Positions 39,880-47,659 of a DNA stretch of 57,980 nt are shown here, piece after piece. Both the position numbers and the translations under genes were made by a program. This DNA comes from a candidate division LCP-89 bacterium B3_LCP. GTDB lineage: Bacteria > Electryoneota > B3-LCP. Numbering within the stretch: position 1 is the stretch's first letter; every line of letters begins with the position of its first letter. The notes below the pieces were generated by a model. It did no database searches, was not told where the DNA came from, and saw nothing but the letters and a program-made list of their open reading frames with translations. The DNA is taken from the NCBI GenBank assembly GCA_005223185.1, contig NJBN01000015.1, positions 1-57,980 on the forward strand. Reading direction: 5' to 3'.

Positions 39880-41805
39880 TTGGCTAAGCGAACAATTTCC
39901 GCTGATCCAGCGACGACTAAAGCATACGAACATGCCCGCACTCAGGATATAACTACTATCTGGGAACGGCACGAAGCCATGCAGCCCATCTGCGCTTTTG
40001 GTGATTTGGGACTCTGCTGCACAATTTGTTACATGGGACCCTGCCGCATTGATCCATTTTCCAAGGAGGACATTCGTGGGGCGTGCGGTGCGGGTCGCGA
40101 TACAATTTCCGCCCGAAATTACACTCGCGCGGTGGCGGCGGGAACGGCAGCGCATTCGGATCATGCTCGCGGTATCTGTCATACGCTGCTGGAGGCTGCC
40201 AGCGGAAGCGCTCCGGATTACAAGGTCATAGATATAGAGAAGCTGAAAACCATAGGTGCTGAGTTAGGCTTGAAGACGGAAGACGTTTCCTATGCAGATC
40301 TGGCTCTTCAGTTGGGAAAACGCTTGCTGGAAAATTTCGGTAAATCAGAAGGTACGGTCGATTTCGTAAAAAGAGCGCCAAAGGGCCAACAGGATAAGTG
40401 GGAAGCTGCTGGTGTGATTCCACGAGCCGTTGACAGGGAAGTAGTGGAATGTATGCATCGCACACATGAAGGTGTGGACGCCGATCCCAAGAGCTTGATT
40501 CTGCAGGCAATACGCTGTGCTCTGGCTGACGGTTGGGGTGGTTCCATGATGGCTACTGAACTGCAGGACATCCTGTTCGGTTCACCCAAGCCAATACGTT
40601 CCAAAGTGAATTTAGGCGTGCTTAAAGAAGGTTGCGTCAACGTGGTCGTTCATGGACACGAACCCGTATTGTCCGAAATGCTGGCGATAGCCGCACGGGA
40701 AAAGGAAATAATCGATTATGCAAAGTCAAAGGGCGCAGAAGGATTGACCCTGTCAGGAATTTGCTGCACTGCCAATGAAATATTAATGCGTCAGGGTTAC
40801 CCCGTTGCAGGTAACTTCCTGCAGCAGGAACTGGCTATTTCAACAGGCGCGGTGGACGCCATGATAGTTGACGTTCAGTGCGTAATGCCCGGATTAGCGC
40901 AGATTGCAGAGCATTTTCACACTCACTTGGTGACAACGTCTGACAAGGCTCGCATCCCCGGAGTTAATCATTTTGACTTCCATGAAGAGAAAGCGTTAGA
41001 TTGCGCCCGTGAACTTCTAAAAGACGCGGCTGACAGTTTCGCTAAGCGGGATAAGAGTTTGGTTGACATCCCGCAGGAGAGCATGGATTTGGTGGCCGGA
41101 TTTACCGCAGAGAACACCTTCCATCACTTAGGAGGGACTTTCCGGGGGACTTACCGTCCGTTGAACGATGCCATAATGTCAGGGAGGCTACGTGGTGTTG
41201 TCGGTGTAGTTGGCTGTAACAACGTAAAGATCAATCACGATCACAACCATAAAGTAATGGTTGAGGAACTACTTAAGAATGACGTTTTAGTAGTTCAGAC
41301 CGGATGTTCTGCTCTGGCATGCGCCAAGGCGGGTTGGCTGCGTCCTGAGGCTGCTTCTGAAATGGCAGGGAAAGGTCTGCAGGAGATCTGTGAAGCGGTC
41401 GGTATTCCACCAGTCCTTCACATGGGTTCTTGCGTGGATAATTCGAGAATCCTGATTGCCTGCTGCGAGATGGTAAAGGAGGGCGGCATTGGGGAGGACA
41501 TTTCTCAACTGCCAGTAGCTGCAGCAGCGCCGGAAGCGATGTCCGAGAAAGCTGTAGCGATTGGTCTGTACGCGGTGGGGTCGGGTATCACAACCTTTTA
41601 CACACCAGCGCCGAGAGTGCTAGGAGCTCCTGCCGTTCTGGATTACTTGACTAACAGCATGGAGCAGGATTTCGGAGCGCACTGGGTATTTGAGGATAAT
41701 CCGCTTACCGCCGCCAGAGGCATCATTGAACATCTGGATAAGAAACGGGCTGCGCTAAAACTTGATCCCATGATGTACAATCCCGACGTGGCGAGGTCAG
41801 CCTGA
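39880..41805 (+). CDS. cooS: anaerobic Ni-Fe carbon monoxide dehydrogenase catalytic subunit
   Basis: CooS/AcsA reversibly oxidises CO to CO2; in this operon it would reduce CO2 to CO for acetyl-CoA synthase. The 641-residue protein starts at TTG with AAGGGAG 6 nt upstream. D-cluster cysteines are Cys38 and Cys46; B-cluster cysteines are Cys47, Cys50, Cys55 and Cys69. C-cluster ligands fit His260 (VVHGHEP), Cys295/296 (GICCTAN), Cys334 (DVQCVMPG), Cys446 (VVGCNN), Cys476 (QTGCSALAC) and Cys518 (HMGSCVDN). All are in the spacing known for Carboxydothermus CODH-II. Its stop overlaps the next start by 1 nt. Confidence 0.97.
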   Translation: MAKRTISADPATTKAYEHARTQDITTIWERHEAMQPICAFGDLGLCCTICYMGPCRIDPFSKEDIRGACGAGRDTISARNYTRAVAAGTAAHSDHARGICHTLLEAASGSAPDYKVIDIEKLKTIGAELGLKTEDVSYADLALQLGKRLLENFGKSEGTVDFVKRAPKGQQDKWEAAGVIPRAVDREVVECMHRTHEGVDADPKSLILQAIRCALADGWGGSMMATELQDILFGSPKPIRSKVNLGVLKEGCVNVVVHGHEPVLSEMLAIAAREKEIIDYAKSKGAEGLTLSGICCTANEILMRQGYPVAGNFLQQELAISTGAVDAMIVDVQCVMPGLAQIAEHFHTHLVTTSDKARIPGVNHFDFHEEKALDCARELLKDAADSFAKRDKSLVDIPQESMDLVAGFTAENTFHHLGGTFRGTYRPLNDAIMSGRLRGVVGVVGCNNVKINHDHNHKVMVEELLKNDVLVVQTGCSALACAKAGWLRPEAASEMAGKGLQEICEAVGIPPVLHMGSCVDNSRILIACCEMVKEGGIGEDISQLPVAAAAPEAMSEKAVAIGLYAVGSGITTFYTPAPRVLGAPAVLDYLTNSMEQDFGAHWVFEDNPLTAARGIIEHLDKKRAALKLDPMMYNPDVARSA

Positions 41806-43653: not shown

Positions 43654-45843
43654 ATGTCCCGAATTATAGCAACAGCCGCCATTAGGGGCGCGCATAAGAT
43701 CGTTGAAAGAGCAGAAGAGCAGCTTGGTAAGTCAATGGAAGAACTGGGTGCGGATAAAATCATCGACCTGCCGGATACCGCTTACTATCTGCCTGTCATC
43801 TACGCCATGTTGGGTTTAAAAGTACAGAAAGTGGGTGATTTGCAAGAGGTTATCCAGCATTGTAAGAACCTCCTCCCCCCTATCCCGACAGATGGTCTTT
43901 GGCTGCCCTATTTAGGCTCAGCTTTGGATGCTGGTATGGCAACTTTGTTCGCTCAAGAAGTGCTTGAAGGGCTAAAATACGCTCACAATCCCAATCCTTA
44001 CAATGACATCTGGCTGGGCGCTACATCAGATGCGATCCTGCGGGAACAGGGCATCAAATTAGTTGATGGGCGCATGCCAGGATTTGCGGCATGTGTCGGT
44101 GCGCTGCCCACAACAGAAGCGGCGGTTAAGCTTGCCCGCGACCTGCAGGAGAGGAACATCTTGGTATTCCTGTCATCGAGTACGAACGGCGTTTCCATGG
44201 CGGAGCAGTTAGCTGAAGCGAATGTCGAGATGAACTGGGATACATTCCTGGTTCCTTACGGCAAAGATACGTCAGCTACCGTTTGGGCGCTCGGATTCGC
44301 AGCTAGGTCAGCGATGACTTTTGGCGGTTTAACACCCGGTGGATTGAAGGAAGCGCGGGATATTCTACTCTACAACAAGGAACGCGTGCATGCTTTCGTG
44401 CTGGCGCTGGGGGAAGTCGATGATGAGAAATACGCCACCGCCGCGGGTGCTATCAACTTCGGATTCCCGGTGATAGCCGATACGGACATACCGGAAATCC
44501 TACCGACGGGAATCTGTACCTACGAACACGTCGTTTCCAACATTTCGCATGACGATATGCCATCGCGCGCAATTCAAGTGCGAGGCGTGAAGATAAAAAT
44601 CCAGAAGATAGACATTCCGGTGCGTTATGGTCCCGCATTTGAAGGTGAACGCGTGCGTAAGGATGACCTGCAGGTGGAATTCGGCGGTAAATACCACACG
44701 GCTTTCGAGTACCTTTCCATGAAGCAGTTGGATGAAGTGGAAGATGGGAAGATAGAAGTCATCGGTCCTGAGATAAGCGAAGTGGAAGAGGCTGCCAAAT
44801 TACCGATAGCGATCTGGGTGGAGGTAGCCGGACGCAAGATGCAAAAGGATTTTGAAAGTATCCTGGAACGGTACGTCCACACCATGCTATCCATGCCGAT
44901 GGGGGTCATGCATTTGGGTCAGCGGGATACCATCTGGGTACGCATATCAAAAACGGCGTATAATGCAGGGTTCACCCTTAAGCATTTAGGTGTTACGCTT
45001 CGGTCAATGCTCTTAAACGAATTTCCGGCAATAGTGGATAAGGTGCAGGTTAAATTATACACCAATACTGAAGACGTTGAACGACTATACCAGGAAGCCA
45101 AAGCGGCATATGAAATCAGAGACAAGCGCATGGGTGAATTGGTGGATGAAGCGGTCGACACCTTCTATTCCTGTCAGCTTTGTCAATCGTACGCTCCCAA
45201 CCATGTATGCATTATAACTCCAGAGAGATTGGGACTGTGCGGAGCATACAACTGGTTGGACGGCAAAGCGGCTTATGAGATAAACCCAACTGGAGGCAAT
45301 CAGCCGGTTGCCAAAGGTGATTGCTACGATGAAGAAAAAGGCAAGTGGAACGGTGTGGACGATTTTATCCAGAGTAAGTCAAACCAGGCGGTGGAACGGT
45401 TCAGCGCTTACTCCATGATGGATGATCCCATGACATCGTGCGGCTGCTTTGAAGCTATCACCTGCGTTCTTCCGGGAACGGGGGGCATTATGATCGTGGA
45501 TCGTGAATTCCAGGGTATGACGCCTGCGGGCATGACCTTCTCTTCCCTGGCGGAAGTGGTGGGTGGTGGACAGCAGACGCCGGGTTTCATCGGTATTGGC
45601 ATCCTTTATGTTCTTTCGAAGAAGTTTATATCCGCCGATGGCGGTTTGAAGAGAGTTGTATGGATGACTTCCAGTATTAAAAACCGCTTGGGTGATAAAC
45701 TGGCGGAACGCTACAAAGAGATCGGTGAACCTGATCTGCTGGACAAAATCCCCGATGAATCAATTACTGACGATCTGGAGAAGTTGGCTGAGCATCTGGC
45801 TGAAGTCGGGCATCCGGCTTTAGAGATGGGGGAAATGGTTTAA
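43654..45843 (+). CDS. acsB: acetyl-CoA synthase (CODH/ACS alpha/beta subunit)
   Basis: AcsB joins CO, the methyl group from the corrinoid protein and CoA to form acetyl-CoA at a nickel-nickel-[4Fe-4S] A-cluster. At 729 residues it has the length of the Moorella enzyme. The A-cluster ligands are Cys507, Cys510, Cys519 and Cys529 for the cubane and Cys596-Gly-Cys598 for the distal nickel (TSCGCFEA). The bacterial-type N-terminal CO-channel domain is present, which suggests tight association with CooS. It is followed by a foreign-looking gene and then by the remaining pathway genes. Confidence 0.98.
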   Translation: MSRIIATAAIRGAHKIVERAEEQLGKSMEELGADKIIDLPDTAYYLPVIYAMLGLKVQKVGDLQEVIQHCKNLLPPIPTDGLWLPYLGSALDAGMATLFAQEVLEGLKYAHNPNPYNDIWLGATSDAILREQGIKLVDGRMPGFAACVGALPTTEAAVKLARDLQERNILVFLSSSTNGVSMAEQLAEANVEMNWDTFLVPYGKDTSATVWALGFAARSAMTFGGLTPGGLKEARDILLYNKERVHAFVLALGEVDDEKYATAAGAINFGFPVIADTDIPEILPTGICTYEHVVSNISHDDMPSRAIQVRGVKIKIQKIDIPVRYGPAFEGERVRKDDLQVEFGGKYHTAFEYLSMKQLDEVEDGKIEVIGPEISEVEEAAKLPIAIWVEVAGRKMQKDFESILERYVHTMLSMPMGVMHLGQRDTIWVRISKTAYNAGFTLKHLGVTLRSMLLNEFPAIVDKVQVKLYTNTEDVERLYQEAKAAYEIRDKRMGELVDEAVDTFYSCQLCQSYAPNHVCIITPERLGLCGAYNWLDGKAAYEINPTGGNQPVAKGDCYDEEKGKWNGVDDFIQSKSNQAVERFSAYSMMDDPMTSCGCFEAITCVLPGTGGIMIVDREFQGMTPAGMTFSSLAEVVGGGQQTPGFIGIGILYVLSKKFISADGGLKRVVWMTSSIKNRLGDKLAERYKEIGEPDLLDKIPDESITDDLEKLAEHLAEVGHPALEMGEMV

Positions 45844-45844
45844 G

Positions 45845-45880
45845 GCAGGATTCAGGAGACAGGAGTCAGAATACAGAATG
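45845..45880. repeat. short degenerate AGGAG/CAGAAT repeat after acsB
   Basis: A purine-rich stretch built from CAGGA, CAGGAG and CAGAAT units, seen between genes in other environmental genomes. With the hairpin array at 46736-46851 it brackets the TIR-like gene. Confidence 0.35.
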
Positions 45881-45892
45881 TGGAGGTGATTT

Positions 45893-46732
45893 ATGCCAGG
45901 ATTTGATTTTATTTGTCCGATGAATTACCCGAATAAGTGCGATCTTTCTCAGACAGTAGTAGATAGTCTACAAGCTTCTGAAGGGGAAAAAACCGGGTTT
46001 TTAATGTATCAATTTCAGAATAAAGACCAGTATTTAGTTGAGACTATCAAGAAAAAATTCAAAAGCTGGAATTGCCTGATACGAGAGGCAGCAAGTGAGC
46101 CAGGGACGGGGATTAAGTTTTGTAAGGTCTGCAGACTTGCTACTGCAAGCGATTTTGGCATTGGTGTTCTCACACCTGAGAATCTAAACGTCTATCTCGA
46201 ATTGGGCCTGATATGGGGACAAGGGAAGGATATACTCCTACTCGCAAATCCCAAGAAATTACCAAAAGGCAAATCATTAAATGATCTCCGTTTTGATGTC
46301 AATGCATTTATGGTGATAGAATACAAAAGTAAGAACGAACTTGAGGAAAAACTAGACATCCAGGCACCCCCATTCCTTGATAGGGTTCGTGTTATGGGCA
46401 TTTATCAGCAGGAATTAGTTAAGTCGGTAAGGCACAGACTAAAATTATTAAAGCAGCAGAAAAAGGAGAATATTGAATTTCTTAAGGTGGTTTTATTAAT
46501 GGGTAAAGAACAATTCGGGAGTAAATTATTACAGACTTATATACGTGTTATGTTGGGAACTCCGCATGATTTTCATGAAAATAGTCATCAGTATATGTCG
46601 AATCTTGGCGGATTTGGATTCGTTGAATGTGAAGACTTAAGAAGAGTTCAAGGTAGAACTGAAGCTTGGCGTTATCATTTTAATTTGACTCTATTACATA
46701 TCCTATGTCAAGAAGCATTTAAAGAGATCTAA
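45893..46732 (+). CDS. TIR-like / nucleoside-deoxyribosyltransferase-like domain protein, AT-rich insertion
   Basis: The 279-residue protein has an excellent ribosome site (GGAGGTGATTT). Residues about 30-155 look like a Rossmann-type TIR-like or nucleoside 2-deoxyribosyltransferase-like domain: TGFLMYQFQNKDQYLVETI opens it, ASDFGIGVLTPENLNVYLELG carries a candidate catalytic Glu, and GQGKDILLLANP follows. Two Cys pairs occur (FICPMNYPNKC, FCKVCR). The C-terminal 110 residues are helical with a conserved-looking HDFHENSHQYM patch. TIR-like proteins often cleave NAD or sense nucleotides in stress or phage defence. It interrupts the acs operon, is markedly more AT-rich than its neighbours and is flanked by repeats, so it is probably a late arrival. 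Function is not known. Confidence 0.7.
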   Translation: MPGFDFICPMNYPNKCDLSQTVVDSLQASEGEKTGFLMYQFQNKDQYLVETIKKKFKSWNCLIREAASEPGTGIKFCKVCRLATASDFGIGVLTPENLNVYLELGLIWGQGKDILLLANPKKLPKGKSLNDLRFDVNAFMVIEYKSKNELEEKLDIQAPPFLDRVRVMGIYQQELVKSVRHRLKLLKQQKKENIEFLKVVLLMGKEQFGSKLLQTYIRVMLGTPHDFHENSHQYMSNLGGFGFVECEDLRRVQGRTEAWRYHFNLTLLHILCQEAFKEI

Positions 46733-46735
46733 CTC

Positions 46736-46851
46736 CCCGGGAATGAATTCCCGGGCTAATATACTTCAGTCCCGCCAGGGCGGGACGGAGAAAAAGAAGC
46801 GTCCCACTTCAGTGGGACAGTATTAAACTAGCCCGGAAATTCATTTCCGGG
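46736..46851. repeat. array of four evenly spaced palindromes
   Basis: Four hairpins follow at about 32 nt intervals: CCCGGGAATGAATTCCCGGG (46736-46755), GTCCCGCC-ag-GGCGGGAC (46769-46786), GTCCCACT-tc-AGTGGGAC (46801-46818) and CCCGGAAATTCATTTCCGGG (46832-46851). The first and last are variants of each other, as are the two inner ones, so the whole array is itself symmetric. It resembles REP/BIME elements. It lies between the TIR-like gene and the second nickel-ATPase gene. Confidence 0.85.
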
Positions 46852-46876
46852 TGGTGTGAAGCTTTTCAGAAAACCA

Positions 46877-47659
46877 ATGAAAATAGCCATAACCGGCAAA
46901 GGTGGTGTTGGTAAGACAACGCTGACAGCATTGCTGGCAAAGACATACGAAGAAGAAGGATACAAAGTCTATGCGATAGATGCTGATCCCGATGCTAATC
47001 TGGCTTCAGTATTGGGCGTTCCAGAGCCAGATGGTATTGTCCCCATCGTGGAGATGAAGGAACTGATCAAAGAGCGGGTGGGTTCCACCTCCGAAGATAT
47101 CGGATCGTACTTCACGATGAATCCGCGGGTAGATGATATTCCTGAAAAATACGGTATTAGAATCGGTGATATTCGTCTGTTGGTATTGGGACATATCCCC
47201 AAAGCCAGGGGAGGTTGTGCTTGCCCTGAAAACATATTCTTAAGGGAATTGGTAAGTCATGCTCTGACGCAAAAAGGTGAGATCGTTCTCATAGACATGG
47301 AGGCAGGTATTGAACATTTAGGTCGCGGGACGGCTCAGGGTGTGGACGTGATGATCATCGTGGTGGAGCCATCCCGCCAGAGCATTGAAACATCGAAGAG
47401 GATTTTCAAGTTAGCCAGGGAACTGGGTGTGCCGAAGATAGTGGGAGTGGTGAACAGGGTGGCATCTCCTGATGAGAATACACTGGTACAGAATGCGCTT
47501 GAGAATATTCCTTTAATTGCCAGTATTTCCAACGATGATGATATCCGAACTAATTCTATTAATAACCAAAGTATAGTTGTTAATGATACGATGAAGTTGA
47601 GTATTGCAGAGATAACGGGCGAATTGAAGGCATTTTCCGCTTCAGAAACAGAAATCTGA
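46877..47659 (+). CDS. second CooC/AcsF-type ATPase (ACS or CODH maturation)
   Basis: A MinD-family ATPase of 260 residues from the ATG (MKIAITGKGGVGKTT); a GTG 21 nt upstream, inside the palindrome array's end, could also start it. It has a Cys114-x-Cys116 metal site (GGCACPENIF) in the position used by CooC and AcsF to bind nickel. Adjacent to acsD and acsC and after acsB, it most likely loads nickel into acetyl-CoA synthase, while the cooC at 39066 serves CODH. This division is inferred from position. Confidence 0.88.
   Translation: MKIAITGKGGVGKTTLTALLAKTYEEEGYKVYAIDADPDANLASVLGVPEPDGIVPIVEMKELIKERVGSTSEDIGSYFTMNPRVDDIPEKYGIRIGDIRLLVLGHIPKARGGCACPENIFLRELVSHALTQKGEIVLIDMEAGIEHLGRGTAQGVDVMIIVVEPSRQSIETSKRIFKLARELGVPKIVGVVNRVASPDENTLVQNALENIPLIASISNDDDIRTNSINNQSIVVNDTMKLSIAEITGELKAFSASETEI

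Follow-up and report, generated by a model that had tools for sequence, protein, structure and literature searches.

An AT-rich gene for a predicted NDT/TIR-like two-domain protein between acsB and acsF in the CODH/ACS operon of a candidate division LCP-89 bacterium

The window analysed here, a stretch of 57,980 nucleotides from the genome of candidate division LCP-89 bacterium B3_LCP (contig NJBN01000015.1), contains a CODH/ACS operon whose genes all lie on the forward strand. The order runs from cooS (starting at 39880), a ferredoxin (41805) and an NAD(P)H-type oxidoreductase (42331) through acsB, the acetyl-CoA synthase subunit (43654–45843; Pfam ACS_CODH_B_C, 1.5e-113), to acsF, a cooC-type nickel-insertion ATPase (46877–47659; Pfam CbiA), acsD (47678) and acsC (48660), the names of cooS, the ferredoxin, the oxidoreductase, acsD and acsC being assigned from sequence. 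The ATG of acsF is at 46877, with an alternative GTG start at 46856, and its sister-genome counterparts begin at the same MKxAxTGKGG. Between acsB and acsF, in the same orientation, lies a gene that we call X279 (45893–46732), which encodes a protein of 279 amino acids with an NDT/TIR-like N-terminal domain and a helical, winged-helix-like C-terminal domain, both as predicted. The open reading frame, one orthologue and the identity by codon position establish X279 as a real gene. The sequence context of its ribosome-binding site, AATGTGGAGGTGATTT, occupies positions 45877–45892 (+) directly 5' of the ATG, and the strong site is found at the start of the reading frame as GTGGAGGTGATTTATG, also given as GGAGGTGA.

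The first-pass annotation had described an AT-rich gene with a perfect ribosome site that stands between acsB and the nickel-ATPase, acsD and acsC genes and there breaks the operon, and the composition, the ribosome site and the location are borne out. X279 has 37.6% GC (GC3 34.6) against 45–52% for the operon genes, the second lowest value among the window's 43 genes (mean 47.2, sd 3.9). The lowest belongs to a gene at 468–1316 on the reverse strand (35.3% GC), whose product of 282 amino acids has two likely membrane segments and no Pfam family. X279 does interrupt the gene order, but to say that it breaks the operon is too strong: spacers of only 50 bp to acsB and 144 bp to acsF, one shared orientation and the lack of any forward-strand terminator-like site in the spacers on either side make read-through across the gene possible.

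Degenerate repeats had been noted on both sides of the gene, and repeats are indeed present, but the two are different sequences and do not form the ends of a cassette. On the left, CAGGAGACAGGAGTCAGAATACAGAAT (45853–45879, +) is short and degenerate, with a single other near match at two mismatches. The right-hand element (46733–46858), between X279 and acsF, is a dispersed composite palindrome of ~120 bp, MITE/BIME-like, with 40 matches at ~34 places in its own genome and an RNA fold of -74 kcal/mol (z -7.5); similarities of this palindrome to Rfam MIR399 and Acido-Lenti-1 were below cut-off and were taken as chance. As the flanking sequences differ, the repeats do not frame a cassette; neither matching repeats nor an integrase mark both ends of the locus, and no recombinase lies between acsB and acsF. 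The patchy presence described below and the AT-richness agree with the idea of an inserted cassette, whereas the same placement in a second genus and repeats that do not bracket the gene speak against it.

On its own, the X279 protein gives nothing significant in Pfam, NCBIfam or the PDB, and no family model reaches its threshold. No TIR model, including the canonical PF01582 and PF13676, matches it at E<=10 in Pfam, and PF05014 has no match to X279 itself, a relative in genome G027 staying below the cut-off (24.1 of 28.8 bits) for that family while matching the PADLOC model 'Effector, TIR' at 2.2e-16. A relation emerged from a wider comparison. A profile built from 17 relatives at other loci only scored X279 at 47 bits (E=2e-13), compared with at most 5 bits for 2000 shuffled sequences and at most 3 bits for the other reading frames of the window, and hhalign gave a probability of 98% between X279 and the relatives, a statistically significant sequence relation to the DrHyd/NDT/TIR (TDS) superfamily. 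We aligned 20 members, with relatives taken from the phylum and from viral contigs, along the whole N-terminal domain; the shared segments are FLMYQF/FVVMQF, N-x-N-V-x-x-E-x-G, GK-x-ILLLA and FDV-x-x-F-x-x-I-x-Y. Among the 20, Nuc_deoxyrib_tr (PF05014) matched 11, CAP12/Pycsar TIR three and TIR_2 one, and the alignment profile found DNPH1/Rcl in the PDB at E=2.6e-5 and CAP12 more weakly.

The predicted structure agrees with the profiles. AlphaFold places five strands in the N-terminal domain (residues 33–38, 61–65, 88–92, 113–118 and 140–143; pLDDT mostly ~90+), giving the Rossmann-like alpha/beta fold with a five-stranded sheet that typifies the superfamily. Foldseek ranked the BcmB N-glycosidase, DNPH1, TIR-1, SARM1 and NDT at the top, with a probability of 1.00 to DNPH1, BcmB and SARM1 and TM-scores (by target) of ~0.57–0.76 for most single-domain DNPH1, BcmB and NDT chains. 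Alignment, HMM, hhalign, AlphaFold and Foldseek (4jen, DNPH1, SARM1) delimit the domain to residues 33–150 (45989–46342, +), and the modelled fold, the Foldseek matches and the positions of the active-site residues are the structural grounds for membership. Residues 33–150 thus very probably adopt the nucleoside-deoxyribosyltransferase/DNPH1/TIR (DrHyd) superfamily fold. The TIR or nucleoside-deoxyribosyltransferase reading of the first pass, including NVYLELGLIWGQGKD with its candidate catalytic glutamate, could have fallen had structure prediction yielded another fold, and it stands.

That glutamate, the one in NVYLELG, is E103. Together with N97, N99 and V100 it belongs to a loop-helix segment (46181–46207, +) in which these four residues are conserved in at least 90% of the 20 aligned sequences; E103 and N97/N99 follow strand 88–92, at the usual active-site place of the superfamily according to the alignment and the AlphaFold model, and are also kept in the orthologue. 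The acidic residues of 'RAD' and of 'ADIT/AEIT', present in most aligned family members, are missing from X279, so a binding-only version or a nucleotide sensor stays conceivable. The span from C8 through C16 and C77 to C80 (45914–46132, +) holds four cysteines common to X279 and the orthologue, which has no others in its N-terminal half; the wider family has no cysteines at the positions aligned with C77 and C80, and the four together are a possible metal site.

Residues 147–279 (46331–46729, +) form the C-terminal region, in which AlphaFold predicts a long helix of 43 residues (147–189), helices at 191–240, a beta hairpin at 244–263 and a last helix. The confidence is modest, with pLDDT ~52–86 by block, mostly ~65–75, and ~52–75 over the greater part of the end. 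A model of the domain folded by itself was unreliable (pLDDT ~51). With low confidence, the region resembles a winged helix mounted on a stalk. It had been left unassigned in the first pass, and the databases searched gave no family hit for residues 147–279; a profile of the C-terminal domain run on 386 genomes found the two known copies and nothing further. The patch HDFHENSHQYM singled out in the first pass is present at residues 225–235; we do not regard it as a motif, as it is replaced in the sole orthologue. A PADLOC match of the domain to PDC-S47 (E=0.008, 13.8 bits, 60 residues) was not repeated by the orthologue and was judged chance, leaving no convincing match of X279 to a known anti-phage system.

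The helix-helix-helix-beta-hairpin-helix end, the two lost acidic residues and the position inside the operon are what would be expected of the main rival to an enzymatic function, a one-component regulator in which an NDT-like, non-catalytic nucleotide sensor is joined by a helical dimer stalk to a winged-helix-like DNA-binding end, perhaps tuning the acs operon. Inactive members of the DrHyd clade do serve as nucleotide sensors (PMC9503650). However, the winged-helix reading depends on a part of the model with pLDDT ~52–75, X279 keeps the catalytic glutamate, and four sister genera carry the acsB of the operon without X279; we consider such a regulator unlikely.

Among ~390 genomes searched, the full X279 protein was found in one other, G004, a metagenome-assembled genome from Lake Pavin sediment that represents a sister genus (contig JAPKYS010000064.1). 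The two proteins are ~51% identical, and the orthologue too lies directly behind acsB, its reading frame divided near codon 109 by a frameshift that is either genuine or introduced by the assembly. With 38% GC, both copies are AT-rich relative to host genomes of ~50% and ~56%. In the remaining four genera of the family (genomes G001, G002, G003 and G005), acsB is present and X279 is not, and a search of the gaps in three of them (G001, G002, G003) turned up no remnants. Scans of genome contigs returned the G004 contig itself and nothing further, the X279-specific motifs had no counterpart in viral sequences, phages gave no matches, and plasmids gave only distant relatives of the N-terminal domain. 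Tiny 3.6-kb plasmids (L025) from Citrobacter freundii, and in one case from Salmonella, encode a TIR/NDT-like hypothetical protein of the same wide family among their very few genes. A related protein in another genome (G328; L065:1018–1932) has an N-terminal CxxC zinc-ribbon-like segment and carries its TIR/NDT-like domain at the C-terminal end.

Presence is therefore patchy, and the first-pass proposal, which conservation of the gene across the phylum with normal composition would have undone, holds in this respect. Trees of the acs genes and of rpoB do not group the B3_LCP genome with G004, albeit with weak support (53–63% at the relevant nodes), and we rejected the idea that one clean insertion in their shared ancestor explains both copies. 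Vertical loss, repeated gain and transfer are not distinguishable from these data, the persistent AT-richness of the gene in both of these more GC-rich hosts arguing mildly for gain.

Identity between X279 and the orthologue is 0.63, 0.73–0.77 and 0.37–0.41 at first, second and third codon positions, and the far better conservation of second than of third positions indicates protein-level constraint. This bears on the view that X279 is a passenger in decay that no longer has a function, to which the frameshift in the G004 copy and the patchy presence could be credited; with the codon-position contrast, an intact copy behind a strong ribosome site in B3_LCP and the retained active-site residues against it, we find decay quite unlikely. 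A working partner of CODH/ACS, which might for instance handle a nucleotide or corrinoid-related metabolite or protect the enzyme, appears improbable. It would account for the same place behind acsB in two genomes that are not clear sisters by rpoB and for four conserved cysteines that could bind metal in an anaerobe, yet X279 is absent from four genomes that possess acsB, its base composition is strongly unlike that of its neighbours, the orthologue is frameshifted, and what stands beside it at the junction differs between genera.

The acsB–acsF junction varies through the family. It is ~200 bp without a gene in G001, holds a small reading frame and an S9 peptidase in G003, and holds the X279 orthologue, an NRAMP-USP transporter and an AT-rich reading frame of 529 amino acids in G004; in G005 acsB is followed by an aldehyde dehydrogenase, an NRAMP protein and an S9 peptidase, and in G002 acsB is apart from acsF-acsD-acsC, on another contig (L088, L012). 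The peptidases and the dehydrogenase at these junctions were likewise named from sequence. With different genes in six genera, we regard the junction as plastic. Around the separated genes of G002, GroEL lies near the downstream side of acsB and two S9 peptidases precede acsF. The 529-residue product in G004 (L010:6309–7898, between acsB and acsF; 36% GC) has an RSELVHG motif resembling HEPN-type proteins and a weak match to MauJ (E=0.006), possibly marking a second conflict-type gene of the junction. In G001, a reading frame of 280 amino acids upstream of acsB (L011:10364–11206, between acsB and the oxidoreductase; 35% GC) holds VVIFIDILGFRDRIKRT and has no Pfam family; it is a further accessory gene within the acs operon of a sister genome.

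The sequences closest to X279 are FVVMQF/NPNVYYELG TIR/NDT-like proteins, placed near PF05014 Nuc_deoxyrib_tr and PF10137 CAP12-PCTIR, with PHROGs 3634 and 26406 and PADLOC PDLC00733 ('Effector, TIR'). X279 has in common with these proteins the FLMYQF of strand 1, the NxNVYxExG loop-helix, the GKxILLLA strand, FDVxxFxxIxY and the fold; compared with the aligned members it has two acidic residues fewer, extra conserved cysteines and its own C-terminal domain. By fold, the best matches of solved structure are DNPH1/Rcl, which is also matched by profile, and BcmB, N-glycosidases of 2'-deoxynucleoside 5'-phosphates and of CMP, respectively. Both have the catalytic glutamate in the helix after strand 3, as X279 does, but identity is only ~16–24% and the known enzymes are single-domain. 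The TIR NADases SARM1 and TIR-1 and the DUF4062 'Swarozyc' TIR-like NADases share the fold and the catalytic glutamate, while TIR and DUF4062 models show no sequence-level match to X279.

In the effector of the type II-A retron Ec86, a winged helix accompanies an NDT-like domain, the arrangement predicted for X279, which has no detectable sequence similarity to it and no adjoining reverse transcriptase. An orphaned effector of this kind would fit with the description of NDT-like and winged-helix domains in retron effectors (PMC12548924) and with the action of Retron-Eco1 through NAD+ hydrolysis (PMC12405507). We nevertheless hold this origin to be extremely unlikely: retron effectors are absent from the sequence hits and from the top structure hits listed, the nearest relatives are FVVMQF-type proteins, and membership was rejected as the neighbours are acsB and acsF in place of the reverse transcriptase and msr-msd that define the type.

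Taken as a whole, the reading that we put forward, tentatively and with a little less than even confidence, is that X279 is an accessory DrHyd enzyme that travels as a passenger in the acs operon, at a junction prone to gene exchange, and serves as a conditional stress or anti-phage effector. The N-terminal domain would cleave or transfer an N-glycosidic bond in a nucleotide, the candidate substrates being NAD+ and (deoxy)nucleoside monophosphates, with E103 as the catalytic acid/nucleophile in a pocket shaped by N97/N99; from the residues kept and the modelled fold, catalysis has a slightly better than even chance, and NAD cleavage is plausible. The long helix and the winged-helix-like end may hold an oligomer and switch the enzyme on upon binding of a signal or nucleic acid. 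Translation would start at the ribosome site of X279 itself, probably within the acs mRNA, and use of the protein is likely conditional. Two other AT-rich genes lacking a family assignment in sister acs operons support the reading, against which count the frameshifted orthologue, the low-confidence C-terminal fold and the two missing acidic family residues. Kinship, composition and patchiness hint at a role in defence, in which other bacterial TIR-like proteins act (PMC13174449); we consider it possible and rather doubtful, and no known defence genes lie beside X279 among the window genes examined.

It is very unlikely that X279 is a new architecture in which an NDT/TIR-like N-glycosidase or sensor is combined with a four-cysteine metal or Fe-S gate and a winged-helix-like stalk within the acs mRNA. 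If it were, the level of an effector or regulator would track the CO/CO2-fixation activity of an anaerobe, and nucleotide or NAD+ cleavage would be linked to the Wood–Ljungdahl pathway. With X279, the TIR/NDT superfamily of nucleotide-cleaving proteins gains a rare and divergent lineage, whose C-terminal domain and cysteine set are not described in current databases. Should X279 be an active NADase, an accessory effector would share the transcript of an essential operon, which is not the usual way for such a gene to be retained. In this one uncultured bacterial family, a core carbon-fixation operon tolerates unrelated and often AT-rich genes at its acsB–acsF junction.
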